Origin: Cycloclasticus sp. 46_120_T64 | GTDB lineage: Bacteria > Pseudomonadota > Gammaproteobacteria > Methylococcales > Cycloclasticaceae | Assembly (NCBI GenBank): GCA_002162695.1 | Contig: MAAM01000005.1 | Span: 1 to 64,000, forward strand | Length of the DNA: 64,000 bases | Direction of reading: 5' to 3' | Part shown: in pieces, positions 2,731-39,862 of the stretch | How positions within the stretch are numbered: the stretch's first letter is position 1 | Layout: every line of letters begins with the position of its first letter | Translations under genes and position numbers: made by a program | Notes under the pieces: generated by a model | What the model was told of the DNA's origin: nothing | The model's input: the letters and a program-made list of their open reading frames with translations, nothing else | Database searches by the model: none

Positions 2731-3456
2731 ATGACTGAGCAAACACCCTGGAGCAGAGCAGAGTTTGAACAAAAGCTACGAGATATGGAACGCTTCTACC
2801 ATATCAAGCATCCCTATCATGTGATGATGCATGAAGGCAAACTCAACAAAAAACAAATCCAAGGCTGGGTCGCTAACCGTTATTACTACCAAATAAACAT
2901 CCCGCTAAAAGACGCGGCGATTATGGCCAATTGCCCTGATCGAGACACCCGTGCACAATGGATTCAACGAATTATTGACCACGATGGCGCGCCGGGTGAA
3001 CAAGGCGGCATTGAAGCATGGATTCAACTCGGCGAAGCGGTGGGCCTCAGTCGCGAAGAAATCACCTCTGAGCAGCACGTCTTACCCGGTGTTCGTTTTG
3101 CGGTTGATGCCTATGTAAACTTTGCTCGTCAAGCCGATTGGCATGAAGCGGCCAGCTCATCGCTAACCGAGTTATTTGCACCCAAAATACATCAACAACG
3201 GCTTGATAATTGGCCTGAAAACTATCCGTGGATTGCCACTAACGGTTTAAGCTATTTCCAAAACAGGCTTAGTGAAGCACGGCGTGACGTTGAACATGGT
3301 TTACGCATCACCTTGGATTGGTATAAAACCCGTCCACAACAAGAGCGCATGGTTGATATTTTAAAGTTCAAACTGGATATTTTATGGACTATGGCTGATG
3401 CGATGCACATGGCATATGTGCACGAAATGCCGCCTTATTTCACGGTGGAATCATGA
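2731..3456 (+). CDS. pqqC: Pyrroloquinoline-quinone synthase PqqC
   Basis: This 241-aa all-helical oxidase of the TENA/THI-4 fold carries out the last step, ring closure and eight-electron oxidation to PQQ without a metal cofactor. Recognisable segments are [36 protein letters not shown] and [18 protein letters not shown], which build the active site, and [15 protein letters not shown] near the C-terminus. Length agrees with PqqC of other proteobacteria. The gene overlaps pqqD by 4 nt (ATGA). Confidence 0.97.
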
Positions 3457-3728
3457 GCCTAGATAACAGCAAACTATGCCGTTTATCCGTAGGCTACCGA
3501 CTGCAATGGGAACAAGCACAAAACATGTTTGTGCTGTTATACCCAGAAGGCATGGTTGAGCTCAATCAAAGCTCGGCAGAAATCCTCCAACTCTGCGATG
3601 GCAACAACTCACTCGATAAGATCGTCAAAACACTCGAGGAAAAATTCGCCGCCACAGGGCTTGAGGCAGACATCATTAACTTTTTAAACTCGGCATTAGA
3701 CAATGGCTGGATCACTCAAAGCGCCTAG
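3453..3728 (+). CDS. pqqD: PqqA-binding chaperone PqqD
   Basis: This 91-aa protein has a RiPP-recognition (RRE) fold, which binds PqqA and presents it to the radical-SAM enzyme PqqE. Typical segments are [36 protein letters not shown] and the helix with TLEEKF. It overlaps pqqC by 4 nt at its start and overlaps pqqE by 26 nt at its end, so the three are translationally coupled. In some bacteria pqqD is fused to pqqC or pqqE; here it is separate. Confidence 0.95.
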
Positions 3729-33723: not shown

Positions 33724-36200
33724 AGCGGCTAAGTTTAGCATTACGTTTTTTAAGCCGTGATGCTCGGCACGGGGAACTCACCCTTTTGACCTTGGCTTTA
33801 ATCATTGCGGTCACCAGTTCCACCGCGATTAGTTTATTTGCCGATCGTTTACACCGCACCATGAACCTGCAAGCCGCAGAATTTTTAGCCGCCGATTTGG
33901 TCATCAGCAGTTCCGCGCAGGTTCCTCAGGCTTGGCTTGATAAATCCACCCAGATGGGGCTAAAACAGGCAACAACGGCCGAACTGTCAACCGTGCTAAT
34001 CGAAAATGATGAGTTATTATTGGTCGGGCTAAAAGCCGTCAGCGAGGCTTACCCCCTGCGCGGACACCTATCAACCATGGCCAATCCTGATGCACAAGAA
34101 CGCGTGCAGCAGCAAGGGCCGGTTGCTGGCTCGGTCTGGGTCGACAAACGGGTCTTATCCGCCCTAAAACTGAGCATCGGTGATTCAATAACGGTGGGTG
34201 AAAAAGCCTTACGACTCACCCAGATCATTAGTTACGAACCCGATAAACGCGGCGATATTTATAGTTTATCGCCGCGTGTGATGATGAGTAATATCGACTT
34301 ACCTGCGACGAATGTCTTGCAACCGGGCAGTCATGTGCACTACTTCTTTCAATTTAGCGGTGATGCCGCAGCCGTTAAACGTTTTAATGGCTGGGTAAAA
34401 CCACTATTAGTTGTCTCCCAGCGATTAATGGATGTACACGATGACCGTCCCGAAATAGGCAATGCCTTATCACGGGCAGAACGCTATTTAGGTTTATCGA
34501 GCATATTGGTTATCTTGATTGCCGGCGTGGCCATTGCGATGTCCAGCCGCCGATACAGCGAACGGCATTTTAACTCAACCGCGGTATTGCGTTGCTTGGG
34601 CTGCCAACAACACGATATTTTGTTTATTTTCCTATACCAATTTTTAATCTTGGGGCTGTTGGCGTGCTCGGTCGGCCTGTTATTAGGTTGGGCTAGCCAA
34701 GAGGTGCTGTTTCACCTATTACGTAGCCTATTACCAGCAACCGTATCGCAACCTAGCTTAATCGCGGTGCTGTTAGGGTTTTTAACCGGCTTTGCTATTT
34801 TATTAGGTTTTTCATTACCCCCCTTATTACGCCTAAAACGGGTCTCGCCGTTGCGTGTGTTACGCCGCGAATTAGCACCGCTAAACAACAGCGCTGGGTT
34901 GGTCTATGGCTTAGCCGTCCTGTTAATAGCTGGGTTAATTTTCCAATATACCCAAGACTTAAAATTAATGTTATCGATTATCGGCGGTGGTCTGCTGGCG
35001 CTGGTGCTGGCTGCGGCGCTGTTATACGCGATATTGCTGCAATCTCGCCGCCTATTACCTCGGCTTGGGCTGAGTTGGCGTTTAGGTTTACAAAACGTAT
35101 TACGCGAACCGAAAGCCAGCGTGACACAAATTCTGGCATTCAGCATTACCCTGTTGGCGATGCTACTGAGCTTTAGCGTTAGAAACGATTTACTGAGTGA
35201 CTGGCAACAACAATTACCCGCTCAAGCGCCGAACTACTTTGCCATTAATATATTCCCCAACCAAGTCGACAGTTTTTCACAACAGCTACAGCAACAACAA
35301 GTTCCAGCCGCCAATTTCTACCCCATCGTGCGTGGCCGCTTAGTAGAAATAAACGGCACCGCCGTGCAGCAAGTGGTTAGTAAAGATTCACAAGGCGAAC
35401 GCGCCACACACCGTGACCTAAGCTTAACTTGGGGCAACCACTTGCCGGCCGCTAATAAAACCCTCGCAGGGCAATGGGGATCGGCAAAAAAGGGCGAAGT
35501 ATCGATTGAAAGCAAATTAGCCAACAGCTTAAAAGTAACACTCGGCGACCAGCTAACATTCAGCATTGGCAGCGAGCAAATTCAAGTCCGGGTGAGCCAT
35601 ATACGCAGTGTGCAGTGGGACACCATGCAACCCAACTTTTATATGCTGTTTTCTGAAAAAACATTAGTAGGCTACCCCACTACCTATATCACCAGTTTTT
35701 ACTTAGCCGACGAGCGTAAAAAATTACTGAATGATTTAGTCCGGCAATTTCCAGCGATGACCGTATTGGAAGTGGATGCGATGTTAAAACAAATAAAAAT
35801 GATTCTCGGGCAACTAACCGCCGCCATTAATTACCTTTTATACTTCGCTCTATTGGCGGGGTTCAGCGTACTGTTTTCGGCTATTTATTCCACCTTAGAC
35901 CAGCGAATTGCTGACGGCGCGTTGATGCGAACCTTGGGCGCTAACCGGCAATTATTAAGGCGAGCCCATCTAGTAGAATTCTCCATGATCGGCCTAATGT
36001 CAGGATTCATTGCGGTATTTATGTACCAACTAATATTGTTTGCTCTATATAACTACGTGTTGCACTTAGATTTTCACTTTAATATATTGCTGAGCCTTGT
36101 TGTGCCGCTATTAAGCGCAATATGCGTCATGCTAGCTGGCTTATGGGGTGTGAGATCCGCGGTCAATAAACCACCGATGCTGGTGTTGAGGGACCATTAA
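33720..36200 (+). CDS. ybbP: YbbP-like FtsX-domain ABC permease
   Basis: An 826-aa permease with an N-terminal transmembrane helix (LLTLALIIAVTSSTAISLFA), a large periplasmic domain, then two FtsX-type blocks, near residues 260-430 and 700-815, for about ten helices in all. The segments SSILVILIAGVAIAMSSRRYSERHFNSTAVLRCLG and FALLAGFSVLFSAIYSTLDQRIADGALMRTLGANRQ show the twin FtsX repeat. Length is in the range of E. coli YbbP (about 804 aa). It works with the preceding ATPase; an adjacent SGNH hydrolase suggests a link to lipid turnover, by inference only. Confidence 0.92.
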   Translation: MKRLSLALRFLSRDARHGELTLLTLALIIAVTSSTAISLFADRLHRTMNLQAAEFLAADLVISSSAQVPQAWLDKSTQMGLKQATTAELSTVLIENDELLLVGLKAVSEAYPLRGHLSTMANPDAQERVQQQGPVAGSVWVDKRVLSALKLSIGDSITVGEKALRLTQIISYEPDKRGDIYSLSPRVMMSNIDLPATNVLQPGSHVHYFFQFSGDAAAVKRFNGWVKPLLVVSQRLMDVHDDRPEIGNALSRAERYLGLSSILVILIAGVAIAMSSRRYSERHFNSTAVLRCLGCQQHDILFIFLYQFLILGLLACSVGLLLGWASQEVLFHLLRSLLPATVSQPSLIAVLLGFLTGFAILLGFSLPPLLRLKRVSPLRVLRRELAPLNNSAGLVYGLAVLLIAGLIFQYTQDLKLMLSIIGGGLLALVLAAALLYAILLQSRRLLPRLGLSWRLGLQNVLREPKASVTQILAFSITLLAMLLSFSVRNDLLSDWQQQLPAQAPNYFAINIFPNQVDSFSQQLQQQQVPAANFYPIVRGRLVEINGTAVQQVVSKDSQGERATHRDLSLTWGNHLPAANKTLAGQWGSAKKGEVSIESKLANSLKVTLGDQLTFSIGSEQIQVRVSHIRSVQWDTMQPNFYMLFSEKTLVGYPTTYITSFYLADERKKLLNDLVRQFPAMTVLEVDAMLKQIKMILGQLTAAINYLLYFALLAGFSVLFSAIYSTLDQRIADGALMRTLGANRQLLRRAHLVEFSMIGLMSGFIAVFMYQLILFALYNYVLHLDFHFNILLSLVVPLLSAICVMLAGLWGVRSAVNKPPMLVLRDH

Positions 36201-36437
36201 ATAGAGGGGATTCTTTATCCGGTATCCGGTATCCGGCAGCCATTTTTGAGCCGTACTTAAGTTTAAAAGTAACGTTCCGTTTAAACTAGAAAAAAGCCCT
36301 TTTCCTAGCTCTGTTTGCTTTTAAACGTACATCAAACACGGTTATCCATGTTTGGTCTGTTAATATCGTAATACATGGAAGTACCACCCAGCTATATACA
36401 ATTAATATCAGGACAGAGGCTTCCCCTAATTAACACT
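36201..36437. other. Non-coding flank of the accessory region
   Basis: After ybbP the base composition becomes AT-rich. A short tandem repeat (ATCCGGT repeated, about 36219-36236) and an imperfect inverted repeat around CATGTTTG/ATCAAACA (36330-36355) are visible. No gene is apparent. It ends at the core-site-like GTTAGGC where the putative cassette begins. Confidence 0.5.
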
Positions 36438-36465
36438 GTTAGGCATAGATAAATGAAGGTCAGTA

Positions 36466-36624
36466 ATGAATAAGATTAAAACTACTCTTGTAGATGCTTT
36501 AACTGGCGGAATTCTCGGCGGTCTGACTTCATTTTTCATACCCTTTCTTGGTCCCGTAAAGGGCGCAATGATTGGCGCGCTGGGTTTAACAATCTTGGGT
36601 ATTGTACGCAGAACTGGCCGATGA
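36466..36624 (+). CDS. Small glycine-rich membrane protein (cassette ORF 1)
   Basis: A 52-aa ORF starting MNKIKTTLVDALTGGILGGL. It contains one or two hydrophobic segments with glycine-zipper spacing (GGILGGL, GPVKGAMIGALGLTILG) and a basic tail (VRRTGR). The stop overlaps the next start (ATGA), implying coupling. I do not recognise the family. Small cassette-borne membrane proteins are common and mostly uncharacterised. Confidence 0.6.
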   Translation: MNKIKTTLVDALTGGILGGLTSFFIPFLGPVKGAMIGALGLTILGIVRRTGR

Positions 36625-37013
36625 TAGGGCTATTACTTCTTCAAGCAGGTGTTACTGCAATTATTTATTTATTGTTTTTTGCTCGGCCCTGGTTTCTAGC
36701 ATGGCGAAGAACTGATATTTCTAAAGAAGCTAGACCTTCATACTTTATCGGCTTTCTTTTTGCCACATTTTTCTATTACGGCGCCCCAATTTGGATATGG
36801 CGATATGGCTGGAAGATAACAGCAATAATTTTATTGGCATGTATTGTCGCTATCTTTGTAATGGTTAAGTTAACTAGCTTAGCGCTTCAATTTGATAATA
36901 TGGGTCAAAATTTTATCGCAGGTATCATTCTGCAAGTACCAGTTAGAGTTGCTGTAGGGCGCTGGCTTGCTAAGTATGACATCAAGCTAAAGAGTAAAGC
37001 TTTAAATGCCTAA
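36621..37013 (+). CDS. Hypothetical membrane protein (cassette ORF 2)
   Basis: A 130-aa protein with an N-terminal hydrophobic helix (LLLLQAGVTAIIYLLFFA), a central pair (YFIGFLFATFFYYGAPIWIW; ITAIILLACIVAIFVMVKL) and a basic end (KYDIKLKSKALNA). No catalytic motif is visible and I cannot assign a family. Its TAA lies within GCCTAAC of the attC-like site, as the aadA stop codon does in its cassette. Translation is coupled to the 52-aa gene. Confidence 0.65.
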   Translation: MIGLLLLQAGVTAIIYLLFFARPWFLAWRRTDISKEARPSYFIGFLFATFFYYGAPIWIWRYGWKITAIILLACIVAIFVMVKLTSLALQFDNMGQNFIAGIILQVPVRVAVGRWLAKYDIKLKSKALNA

Positions 37014-37085
37014 CAATCGCATCAACATTGACCAAAAATACGCCGCTTCGCTTTGTATTTTTGGTAAGTTATGCAGGCATTAGAG
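37008..37085 (+). other. attC-like recombination site
   Basis: The 78-nt element begins with core site GCCTAAC, continues ..AATCGCATCAAC.., has a perfect 11-bp inverted repeat (ACCAAAAATAC ... GTATTTTTGGT, 37031-37065) around a CGCTTCGC-containing loop, and then shows GTTATGC (37069-37074 region), which pairs with GCATCAAC leaving one extrahelical C, i.e. a bulged G on the bottom strand as integrases require. It closes with ATTAG. The opening resembles the aadA attC. One base of the 3' core departs from consensus. Confidence 0.68.
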
Positions 37086-37202
37086 CCCTCCTCTGCAACA
37101 AAGCATAAGTCGCACATAATATTATTATAAACTTATACGGTTATTATCTTGAGTTTATGTATAATACCCCCCCCATAATTAAAGATAAACAAAGGGTATA
37201 TT

Positions 37203-37700
37203 ATGGATGTCGTAATGGTTTTTACTAGTAAAACACTTGAGACTATGATCGACGAGGGGGGGTGTGGCCACTGGAATGCAAGTAGAAAGCGATTAGACAA
37301 ATGTTCTTACGTCATCGCAACGAAAAGCAATACCCTTCGAGAGCGCTTTCCAGGAAATACCGACATTAAGCAAGACTCTGCTTTTCTTATTGGGAAAATA
37401 TCCAATATTGGTGCCTCACCTAACGGAAAGAGGTCATTAATTCAGCTTTCTCAATATGCAGAATTTAACATCCCTAATGCATGGGTAGGCAATAGAAACC
37501 CTGTCACTTATACAGACATAAACTCTTTCCAAAGTGAACACAAATTTGACATCACGTCACTCGAATGGCTTGAATTTCCAACTAAGGAAACCAATACTAT
37601 ATCTGATATTAAGCCTCTTACTATAAATGAGGCTAAAGAGGGCATAGCCAAAACATTAGGCATTGATTCATCATGTATTGAAATACAAATCAAAACCTAA
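37203..37700 (+). CDS. Hypothetical protein, unrecognised family
   Basis: A 165-aa soluble protein (start MDVVMVFTSKTLETMIDEGG) with segments GGCGHWNASRKRLDKCSYVIATKS, DSAFLIGKISNIGASP, RSLIQLSQYAEFNIPNAW and a C-terminal helix with NEAKEGIAKTLGI. Two Cys and a His near the N-terminus are the only possible active residues I can point to. A TATAAT box (about 37159-37164) and AAAGGG precede it, so it has its own promoter. Local AT richness suggests acquisition by transfer. I assign no function. Confidence 0.72.
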   Translation: MDVVMVFTSKTLETMIDEGGCGHWNASRKRLDKCSYVIATKSNTLRERFPGNTDIKQDSAFLIGKISNIGASPNGKRSLIQLSQYAEFNIPNAWVGNRNPVTYTDINSFQSEHKFDITSLEWLEFPTKETNTISDIKPLTINEAKEGIAKTLGIDSSCIEIQIKT

Positions 37701-37846
37701 TCACTTAAAAAAGGCCGGACAAGCATGTCAACCGGACAACTTTTAGCTACGCTCTTTTGTGCATTCCGCTTCGCTACATTTTTGCACAACACGGAAAAGC
37801 CCCTCTAGTTTCACCTAAAATAATATAAGCCTGTGGGAATTTAAAT

Positions 37847-38377
37847 ATGAGTTTTAAATTAAATGTGGATGACTTCGAAGGTCAATCAATACCATCAGTT
37901 TTAGCACTTGTAGATACTGCTTTCAAAAAGCCACTATCGGAAGTATTGCTCTATGATTTATTGCTAAATGAAACAATTAATAAAGCGCTTAGGCATGGTG
38001 TTTATATGTACTTTAACGACAACAATGAATGTATTTATGTAGGTATGTGCAGCTCCAGTCACTTCGCTCATAGAATTGGCGGGCACTTTGGAATGTCACC
38101 AAAATATGGAATGAATACATTTTTGAAACGTGCAGTAAAAATGCTAGGTTATAAAACTGGTAAATATGAGAGCTATGTAGAGGTATTACCTGAAATATCA
38201 AATTATGGGCTTCTTATAATCAACGCAAACACCAAGGGCAAGAAGTTTATTAAAGAGCTTGAGAAACAATTTCACATTGCATATAAACCGAAACTTAATT
38301 TTCCGAAAGGCTTCCCAAGTACATATAAACCATTAAATTATGATCACAACTTTATGGAGGGTCATTGGCCCCCTTAA
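37847..38377 (+). CDS. GIY-YIG-like domain protein
   Basis: The 176-aa protein contains HGVYMYFNDNNECIYVGMC (residues about 50-68), the GVY...YVG pattern that opens GIY-YIG nuclease folds, followed by a Ser/His-rich segment (SSSHFAHRIGGHF) where the catalytic Arg-helix lies (Arg in AHRIGGHF), and a later Glu in KELEKQFHIAYKP, a position compatible with the metal-binding Glu. GIY-YIG proteins cut DNA or RNA in repair, restriction or mobility. A nuclease role is inferred from the motif alone. The gene stands alone in the accessory region. Confidence 0.65.
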   Translation: MSFKLNVDDFEGQSIPSVLALVDTAFKKPLSEVLLYDLLLNETINKALRHGVYMYFNDNNECIYVGMCSSSHFAHRIGGHFGMSPKYGMNTFLKRAVKMLGYKTGKYESYVEVLPEISNYGLLIINANTKGKKFIKELEKQFHIAYKPKLNFPKGFPSTYKPLNYDHNFMEGHWPP

Positions 38378-38562
38378 ATACAAAAACGCTCCCTATGGGT
38401 ACCGGGTACTCGTAAGACCACGCCTTTTATGGCAGCGTTATGCATTCAAAGCACCAAAAAACTTCAGCACCCCATAAAGGTAAGAGGGTTCTGTTTTTTA
38501 TTAAGAATTTGTAAAGTCTTATATTTAAAAAATAAAGAAAATTCACTTCAATAATTACAGGT

Positions 38563-39147
38563 GTGCGTATTAAGTATCTCGTAGAAATAAAGCAAGGAAA
38601 CTTGGTCCTTGAACAAAATGTAGATTTTATAGTTAATGCCAGTAATACACGTCTTGTTTTAGGTAGTGGTATTTCAATGTCTTTTTTTAGACATTGTGGG
38701 CACAAATTACAAATAGAAATGAATGAACTACTGACTGAAATACATAGCTCTGGTTATTTATTAAAAAAAGGTGATGCAGTCCCCTCAAGTTCAGGAGGTG
38801 CTGACAATTTTAAACATGCATTGCATGTTGCAACAGTAGACTCCAATAAAGGCGTTCACTTTATGAAAAAAAACCCAACACTATCGACTATTGATCTTGC
38901 TTTAACCAACATCGAAAGGGTTCTTATTGAATACGTAAAACTACATAATAAAAAACAAGTCTCCCTTGTTTTACCCCTGCTTGGTTGTGGTATTGGAGGG
39001 TTAAACAAACAGGATGTTATTGATAAATACGATAAATTCTTCACTTCAAATAACGGCTCTGAAACTGACATTGTTTGTCGAATCATTCTATACGGGTATG
39101 GCAGTGAAGACATGCCATTACTAACTAATGCGTTCAAAAAAACATGA
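38563..39147 (+). CDS. Macro-domain protein
   Basis: A 194-aa protein with macro-domain landmarks: VDFIVNASNTRLVLGSGISMSFFRHCG (the NAxN.. and GxG ligand loops, residues about 21-47) and VLPLLGCGIGGLNKQDVI (second ADP-ribose phosphate loop, about 140-157). Macro domains bind or hydrolyse ADP-ribose, ADP-ribosyl proteins or related nucleotides. The start is GTG at 38563 behind ACAGGT. It is very AT-rich compared with the core genes. A single-domain macro protein may reverse ADP-ribosylation; no partner toxin gene such as a DarT is visible nearby. Confidence 0.78.
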   Translation: MRIKYLVEIKQGNLVLEQNVDFIVNASNTRLVLGSGISMSFFRHCGHKLQIEMNELLTEIHSSGYLLKKGDAVPSSSGGADNFKHALHVATVDSNKGVHFMKKNPTLSTIDLALTNIERVLIEYVKLHNKKQVSLVLPLLGCGIGGLNKQDVIDKYDKFFTSNNGSETDIVCRIILYGYGSEDMPLLTNAFKKT

Positions 39148-39618
39148 TTTAAGGAATCTCTTCAGAGTGGTACTACTAGTATTCCGCGTTGGATGCTCTA
39201 CTTTCACCTCCCCCATCAATTCTATTGGCTGGCAGTGCGCCCCTTTATCGCGCTTAAGAATCTGTTTATTTTAGGATCAGTGTGCGCGTTGTTTGAGCAT
39301 AGCGAGTTCGCGCACGCCCGAAAACAAACAAATTCTTGCGATTAGGGTGCCTTTTTCTTTGGTTCTGTTTCTTTTGGGCAAGCAAAAGAAATGAACGCCT
39401 AGCGGCAGCTAAAAACTAGAAAATATCTTCACTACAATCGTAATGGAGTTCGATTAGAAACAGAGGTTGTCGACTGTTTACTTTATGCCCGTACTCCTTA
39501 ATACAGCGCCATTTGAGACATTTCCTTTTAATTTAAGCCCCATTAATATTGGGGCTAGCACTCAACCTTATCTTTTACCTGTCAGCCAGAAATGACACCC
39601 CCACATTATTAACAGGCA
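39148..39618. repeat. Non-coding stretch with a dispersed-repeat-like segment
   Basis: About 470 nt without genes. The part at about 39225-39400 contains GC-rich inverted segments (GTGCGCG ... CGCGCAC near 39281-39315) followed by TTTCTTTTG GGCAAG CAAAAGAAA (39368-39391), a 9-bp perfect stem. Very similar-looking non-coding sequence is scattered in intergenic regions of many gammaproteobacteria, so I take this as a copy of such an element; copy number in this genome cannot be judged from one window. Confidence 0.45.
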
Positions 39619-39650
39619 TAAAAAAACCACTCACATTACTGTAAGTGGTT
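39619..39650 (-). terminator. Terminator of tRNA-Glu
   Basis: On the minus strand AACCACTTACA pairs with TGTGAGTGGTT (one G-T pair) around a short loop, followed by a T-run (the A-run at 39619-39626 on the plus strand). It lies 9 nt past the tRNA 3' end. Confidence 0.85.
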
Positions 39651-39658
39651 ATTTTATA

Positions 39659-39734
39659 TGGCGTCCCCAAGGGGGTTCGAACCCCTGTTACCGCCGTGAA
39701 AGGGCGGTGTCCTAGGCCTCTAGACGATGGGGAC
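39659..39734 (-). tRNA. gltT: tRNA-Glu (anticodon TTC)
   Basis: The minus strand reads GTCCCCATCGTCTAGAGGCC at the 5' end, with anticodon loop CCTTTCAC giving anticodon TTC, T-loop GGTTCGAAC, acceptor GGGGAC pairing with GTCCCC, discriminator G and an encoded CCA; total 76 nt. It differs from the E. coli tRNA-Glu at only a few positions. The 3' end faces the accessory region, a common orientation for integrated DNA, but I saw no repeated copy of the tRNA end. Confidence 0.96.
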
Positions 39735-39748
39735 TTAAGACGTGCGGT

Positions 39749-39777
39749 AGTATATCAAGATTTTCTCAAATAGGTAA
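39749..39777 (-). promoter_or_regulatory. Putative promoter of tRNA-Glu
   Basis: On the minus strand TATACT (39749-39754) is a clear -10 box 14 nt before the tRNA; TTACCT 17 nt upstream is a weak -35. The GC-rich discriminator after the -10 (ACCGC) resembles stable-RNA promoters under stringent control. Confidence 0.5.
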
Positions 39778-39862
39778 AAGAAAATCATCTTTTAATTTTT
39801 CATGTCATTTATACCTATTTATTAGTACACTTCGTGCATATTTATTAAGCATATACATCAAT

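Follow-up and report, generated by a model that had tools for sequence, protein, structure and literature searches.

A probable fossil chromosomal integron with a recognisable attI site in Cycloclasticus sp. 46_120_T64

Introduction

Clusters of attC sites that lack an integron integrase are termed CALINs in IntegronFinder 2.0 and are read there as degraded integrons (PMC9024848). CALINs can be mobilised in trans, according to a study that also describes Xanthomonas clusters away from the main locus (PMC12444791). Two further papers report intI pseudogenes (pseudo-integrons) and, for a fifth of the lineages, the presence of multiple intI genes (PMC2426708), and integrase loss in Treponema phagedenis (PMC3607928). 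Single orphan cassettes of Shewanella have been named SALINs (PMC9229058). The insertion of cassettes at attG sites (Loot et al. 2024, as summarised in PMC12901181 and PMC12444791 and cited in PMC11023631) would likewise put a cassette outside an integron.

The locus described here resembles CALINs, as outlined in PMC9024848, in that it holds attC cassettes with no integrase nearby, but its attI is still recognisable and only one of its attC sites is complete in outline. With the pseudo-integrons and integrase losses covered by the excerpts of PMC2426708, PMC3607928 and PMC12444791 it has in common that intI was lost or inactivated while cassettes remain; unlike in those cases, intI appears deleted rather than mutated, and the genome has a second integrase gene with another attI type. 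The same excerpts contained no mention of attI at integrase-less clusters. SALINs, as described in PMC9229058, are also scattered away from intI, whereas the present locus is not single and comprises two attC remnants plus an attI. An attG event, as characterised in the summaries mentioned above, is unneeded here, as the 5' boundary coincides with an attI site.

Materials and methods

The window, i.e. the whole stretch of DNA analysed, comprised bases 1-64000 of contig C8 in a genome of 2.21 Mb in 15 contigs. The R- and L-box terms and the usual appearance of cassette boundaries were taken as commonly understood, and the gene names ftsX-like, pcnB, tesA, ychF and DUF2058 are those which we presume to apply. 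Detection of attC sites started with a scan for strict R''/R' consensus pairs, which missed the genome's own attC sites and was replaced by profiles from arrays of the genus. Hand-picked seeds numbered 24, of which 23 were usable and 22 entered the genus-trained covariance model R1; the latter recovered 35 places at E ≤0.01 in 12 array stretches. A set of 48 attC sites combined 37 of 46 R1 array matches, 7 of 8 further matches and 4 sites added by hand, and was extended by 46 of 54 additional matches to a set of 94. Local alignments were made against the 48 genus attC sites, with z scores from 60 shuffles each and five control stretches giving z -0.5 to 2.0. The genus attC family (22 sites gap-free after padding) showed two-sided changes in 74 cells versus 28.6 in shuffles, pointing to strong compensatory pairing; in its 5' arm, position 16 is the extrahelical base. 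Integrase searches by tblastn used nine proteins from IntI loci; seven of them were IntI, while those of L001 and L091 were neighbouring proteins (the longest frame of the locus).

Results and discussion

The core motif GTTAGGC was read directly from the sequence at 36438-36444 (plus strand) and its complement GCCTAAC at 37008-37014, with the stop codon TAA of a 130-aa ORF (37011-37013) falling within the latter, just as a preliminary description of this DNA had noted. The inverted repeat that begins there closes with ATTAGAG (37079-37085). By itself the pair of core motifs is weak evidence for a cassette, because GTTAGGC would occur by chance within 700 bp upstream with a probability of about 5%; the window contains the motif eight times on both strands, five times on the plus strand. 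Together with the homology searches described below, the region was resolved into the following elements:

36343..36441, plus strand: attI, type 1 of the genus, with the presumed cassette-promoter region of the lost integron (nhmmer, blastn); cassettes begin after G36438
36439..37079, plus strand: cassette 1, bounded by G36438/TTAGGC and A37079/TTAGAG, its 5' TTAGGC complementary to its own R'' GCCTAAC, attI adjoining
37008..37085, plus strand: attC 1, recognised by homology to genus attC sites, bulge and L-box pairing
37008-37014 and 37018-37026, plus strand: R'' and L'' of attC 1, extrahelical base at 37023
37032-37064, 37068-37075 and 37079-37085, plus strand: variable stem, L' and mutated R' (ATTAGAG) of attC 1
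37080..38437, plus strand: cassette 2 (possibly cassettes 2 and 3), flanked by attC 1 on the left and by the attC 2 R' core on the right
38376..38443, plus strand: remnant of attC 2, 3' arm intact, R' GTTATGC at 38437-38443, R'' side destroyed
38438..39147, plus strand: candidate additional cassette that includes the macro-domain ORF at 38563-39147, downstream of which no attC was seen

The 5' boundary of cassette 1 is preceded by an attI site. An nhmmer profile built from five intI-adjacent attI sites matched 36343-36441 (E 7.8e-22, 75.9 bits) over profile positions 2-100, and this was the sole place in the window matched by either of the two attI profiles; with a limit of E 10, the type-1 profile matched nothing in control sequence of 249,357 bases. 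By blastn the flank was 77-84% identical over 93-94 bp to the attI sites of five congeners (G001, G003, G004, G011 and G015; E down to 3e-23), and alignment of 36346-36438 with these five gave between 74 of 95 and 78 of 93 identical columns. When 36201-36480 was compared with the regions upstream of 12 genus intI genes, that of its own genome included, five reached z 11.7-15.0 and the other seven -1.0 to 4.0, one of the 12 comparisons (L088) being unfair as the extracted stretch looks like intI itself. The site shows decay: it is changed at 6 of the 52 positions that are invariant in the other ten type-1 sites, and one of those others (L127) is equally degraded (6/52). An attI therefore stands at the head of the array, and GTTAGGC at 36438 is, judged by these alignments, the junction between attI and the first cassette. 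The block 36346-36378 on the attI and promoter side contains a dyad, CCATGTTT...AATACATGG, which is complete in 7 of 11 aligned type-1 attI sites and is possibly a candidate operator at the integron promoter.

The absence of an integrase, remarked on in the preliminary description, held for the window and for contig C8, and not for the genome. No TIGR02249 match was obtained on C8, and none of the nine tblastn queries matched the window at E 0.01. A full integron integrase is encoded at C3:110222-111169 (459 bits versus a cut-off of 265). In the genus, 13 of 18 genomes gave IntI matches at E ≤1e-60, one of them partial. The intI-bearing array of this species was probably split by the assembly, since it runs to the end of C3 and the end of C14 carries more attC matches (L006 16567-18411 and L112 11223-16830). 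The attI of the C3 integron differs from the one in the window (z 0.5, no match of either profile), and because the intact integron of the species has a different attI, it is probable that the integrase lost here belonged to a different lineage. A trace of this lost integrase may persist left of attI:

36309..36345, minus strand: tentative remnant of the first intI codons, reached by the blastn alignment to the intI start of G003 (75.5%, 143 bp)

Aligned alone, the expected intI start (36201-36345) gave z -1.5 to 1.6 in five comparisons, which is not significant, and a remnant of the first codons is accordingly listed as possible. Of the features of a complete integron, intI beside the array and an attC intact by R1 were both lacking.

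The inverted repeat at 37008-37085, which the preliminary description had called attC-like, is, on the strength of its homology to genus attC sites, a genuine attC site. Its best full-length partner (z 9.7) was L102:2339-2416 from the intI array of the congener G001, and the similarity spans the variable stem. BLAST of the 94 genus attC sites against both strands of the whole window yielded eight matches at E <0.05 per query, all on the plus strand and confined to two places, 37008-37084 and 38376-38443. The lowest E values were 4.8e-5 at the former and 5.2e-7 at the latter, and they stay small even when multiplied by 94 queries. Seven of nine L-box positions of attC 1 are paired, its extrahelical base sits at the family position, and the bottom strand folds into a hairpin of -15.7 kcal/mol (z -3.1; none of 200 shuffles was as good). 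The joint score for sequence and L-box pairing was 27.1, and no other site in the window came within 5 units; a single place in 6.4 Mb of simulated sequence reached this score, with a poorer stem, and real background sequence (498,714 bases over its two strands) had none. The site thus shows whole-length homology, an L box with an extrahelical base and a bottom-strand stem, and its R' core reads ATTAGAG in place of GTTRRRY.

Scores of the two arms were less selective. Either arm outscored all others among about 128,000 positions in the window, the 5' one at 37008 with 14.3 and the 3' one at 38424-38443 with 16.5, yet single arms in 13 congener stretches without R1 attC sites reached 18.1 (5') and 17.7 (3'). 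The combined arm score from sequence only was rejected as a detector, as another window site (41550) scored 22.0 versus 20.7 for attC 1, and 3 of 20 window shuffles attained the latter value. As arm scores are not exclusive, the attC assignment rests on full-length homology. The covariance model R1 gave no match for 37008-37085 at E 10, even when run unfiltered on 36200-39860, and by this test alone the stretch would not count as attC. Such a score below threshold, put forward earlier as grounds for discarding the site, was outweighed by the sequence homology; R1 likely misses attC 1 because its R' core is mutated. Decay of the 3' core, suspected from the outset, was borne out by the genus attC with full-length similarity, which reads GCGTTAG where the window has GGCATTAG.

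The cassette is not alone, contrary to what had been proposed. The attC 2 remnant has its R' core 1.36 kb past that of attC 1 and is similar to L102:2779-2856 of G001 (z 7.4) and to L132:4040-4117 (E 5e-7). Since this second attC lies downstream, ATTAGAG is best read as a mutated junction between cassettes 1 and 2 and not as a core of the host. A candidate decayed attC at about 37714-37815 follows the 165-aa ORF described below (z 4.6 for 37690-37846), so that a third attC remnant is possible, and the boundary between this ORF and the following GIY-YIG ORF is uncertain. Past the macro-domain ORF attC similarity was not significant (z 1.0 and -0.5). Set beside the CALIN definition, which asks for two or more attC sites and no integrase close by, the locus has two attC sites by homology, neither of which passes R1; both appear too decayed for R1, and an automatic search might miss them.

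The cassettes contain the following open reading frames:

36466..36624, plus strand: 52-aa ORF with one hydrophobic stretch and a weak glycine-zipper similarity (PF13441, E 1.8e-4, 21.6 bits, below the cut-off of 28.9)
36621..37013, plus strand: 130-aa ORF, hydrophobic at residues 1-27 and 61-92, overlapping the 52-aa ORF by ATGA, stop inside R''
37203..37700, plus strand: 165-aa ORF, phrog_37247 (E 7.6e-29)
37847..38377, plus strand: 176-aa ORF with a GIY-YIG-like nuclease domain (PF01541, E 2.1e-4, 21.9 bits versus a cut-off of 22.6)
38563..39147, plus strand: macro-domain ORF (PF01661, E 1.4e-10, a sound match)

The two coupled membrane ORFs first described, which have hydrophobic stretches and overlap by ATGA, are thus contained in what now reads as an integron cassette. 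Among 61 genomes, their DNA occurred in this one alone. Searches of 311 genomes of the order placed the 130-aa protein in two, namely this one and, as a 51% identical relative, a genome from another family; genome_contigs, viral_contigs and plasmids yielded no relatives of this protein. The 51% identical relative, the only other one found, lies in genome G069 (L062 4263-6047, minus strand) and is interrupted by a transposase-like gene, which we take to encode an ISAs1-type transposase, and no attC was noticed by eye beside it. Being proximal to attI, the ORFs of cassette 1 would have been the best expressed. Relatives of the 165-aa protein occurred in 198 plasmid records, all below 60% identity, many of them on small mobilizable plasmids of Enterobacteriaceae and Acinetobacter; among the 20 of the 198 records that were listed, 19 were annotated as hypothetical and one had no annotation. 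For the GIY-YIG protein no relatives were present in genome_contigs or plasmids. That the ORFs are open while all recombination parts are damaged would be compatible with cassettes kept for their genes. A scan of 36180-38600 for promoters and terminators was uninformative (three promoter-like sites versus a shuffle mean of 8.6).

The surroundings of the locus have been rearranged. In this genome tRNA-Glu and pcnB come next after the remnant, and a DUF2058-like gene sits on contig C10 and not after ftsX, although it is the next gene after ftsX, at varying distance, in 12 of 14 congener stretches (L059 and L060 had no match to it, and L060 ends inside ftsX). In G008, pcnB and ftsX are 136 kb apart. 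Window positions 36200-39657 coincide with a synteny breakpoint in view of the roughly 136 kb between ftsX and pcnB in G008 and of the usual ftsX neighbour lying on another contig here, and the remnant therefore sits at a rearrangement breakpoint. The joined flanks of 36438-37085, proposed earlier as an empty site, were not found among congeners, the flanks being not syntenic. The interval after ftsX was considered as a cassette hotspot and rejected: its size varies, but R1 gave only one weak match in 14 stretches, outside the interval (E 0.72). Some of the inserts after ftsX in congeners presumably encode Crp/Fnr-like regulators, as read by eye. A tesA-like gene beside the DUF2058-like gene on C10 was considered as a duplicate and turned out to be a 49%-identical paralogue.

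In the order observed, attI is followed by a two-ORF cassette, an attC with mutated R', one or two further cassettes and a half-destroyed attC, with no integrase beside them. We consider this a fossil chromosomal integron, second to the one on C3, which has lost its intI and retains an attI plus two or three cassettes, their ORFs open but their recombination sites broken; the probability of this reading is put at roughly 0.9. An integron of the type found in the five congeners would once have resided here, its intI encoded by the minus strand to the left of attI. Its cassettes would have been captured by the attC x attI reaction, the newest next to attI and the promoter. The integrase gene would then have been deleted and the locus joined to the ftsX-like gene by rearrangement. 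Thereafter the recombination sites presumably decayed while the ORFs stayed open, leaving the cassettes as fixed genes, and the membrane-protein pair would be transcribed from the attI-side promoter or with the transcript of the ftsX-like gene. This order of events is our reconstruction, there being no closer relative in which intI still accompanies the locus.

An alternative that we regard as improbable is a satellite integron, in which the locus would belong to a family of integrase-less attI platforms loaded and unloaded in trans by the IntI of the genome. It draws on the wide dispersal of such clusters in the genus. Of 18 genomes of the genus, 16 had R1 attC matches at E ≤0.1. Two of these genomes, G008 and G014, consist of one contig, and there some of the matches lie hundreds of kb from the sole IntI match. 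An attI of type 1 or 2 was kept in 14 of 21 fetched integrase-less clusters, a proportion that is no genus-wide rate, the 20 dispersed stretches having been chosen by hand from a longer list, a choice that biases their attC scores. These are L117, L118 and L120 (G008), L121 (G014), L124 (G004), L125-L127 (G017), L128 (G005), L129 (G012) and L130-L132 (G001), together with L113 of the own genome (C8:184.3-185.7 kb), with attI at 2330-2426 and attC at 2990-3021 and 3670-3727; the other seven (L119, with a weak match only at E 0.016, L122, L123 and L133-L136) have no attI. In all 14, attI lies upstream of the attC matches and on the same strand, and in 10 of them, by our tally, its type is that of an intI-bearing integron of the own genome, the exceptions being L113, L126, L127 and L131. 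In G008, four attI loci (three clusters and the intI-bearing integron) stand beside a single IntI match. Separate arrays of one genome can contain nearly identical attC stretches, as in G008, where the intI array and one of the clusters agree at 100% over 59 bp. Within a genome, type-2 attI sites resemble one another more than expected (26 of 5000 permutations reached the observed value, by eye mostly owing to G008) in a test with 11 type-1 and 13 type-2 sites that left out L124 with its split attI.

In the window, by contrast, both attC sites are broken, attI has lost otherwise fixed positions and its type is unlike that of the genome's own integron. Type-1 attI sites as a whole are not grouped by genome (2800 of 5000 permutations), and 4 of the 14 clusters (L124, L125, L128 and L131) carry short intI stubs, as simple loss predicts. 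Some clusters are evidently old and inherited, because L125 and L131 have 2.5 kb of left flank in common. L123 of G004 is at the same chromosomal place as L113, with 2.5 kb of right flank in common. L113 is followed by a fragment 27-34% identical to the C-terminal part of IntI, probably from another tyrosine recombinase, and about 630 bp at 78-84% identity are common to the G005 intI array, clusters of G004 and G008 and a G017 stretch. The pattern across the genus is compatible with repeated integron loss and with satellites served in trans; we favour loss.

Still less probable is the insertion of one cassette by an integrase at a secondary genomic site (attG-like, G/TTAGAG) outside any integron, as the preliminary description had suggested for its aberrant 3' core. 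The boundaries are clean with complementary cores, the outer bases read across as G and TTAGAG, and an apparently intact IntI gene is present elsewhere in the genome. Against this, almost the full length of the attI profile is matched by the 5' flank, and a second attC follows, its R' core 1.36 kb on, so that the right flank needs no secondary site and no such insertion has to be assumed at all; a single cassette in a non-attI site, as in SALINs or attG insertions, is not what the locus presents. Neither does the idea of a single cassette captured outside an integron stand. A chance inverted repeat with chance core motifs beside unrelated small ORFs, to which the missing R1 match, the modest improbability of the core pair and the equal arm scores in unrelated stretches might lend some colour, can be dismissed in view of the homology to genus attC and attI sites with clean controls.

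Conclusions

The reading as a lone cassette is corrected here to that of an integron remnant, and a genus-specific profile can trace attI after intI has been lost. As 14 of the 21 fetched clusters keep attI, it can now be asked whether 'degraded' clusters are dead arrays or platforms served in trans. On a more speculative and rather doubtful view, the genus as a whole may combine one integrase gene with dispersed intI-less attI-promoter platforms that bear canonical attC arrays and receive their cassettes in trans, with a dead member of this set in the window; a limited search of the open literature returned no account of genomes that have several attI platforms lacking an integrase. If true, orphan attI platforms would constitute a non-autonomous, satellite kind of integron. 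For the fossil integron itself, the membrane-protein pair, still open as the first cassette, suggests that genes carried on cassettes can persist after the machinery responsible for their capture has gone.
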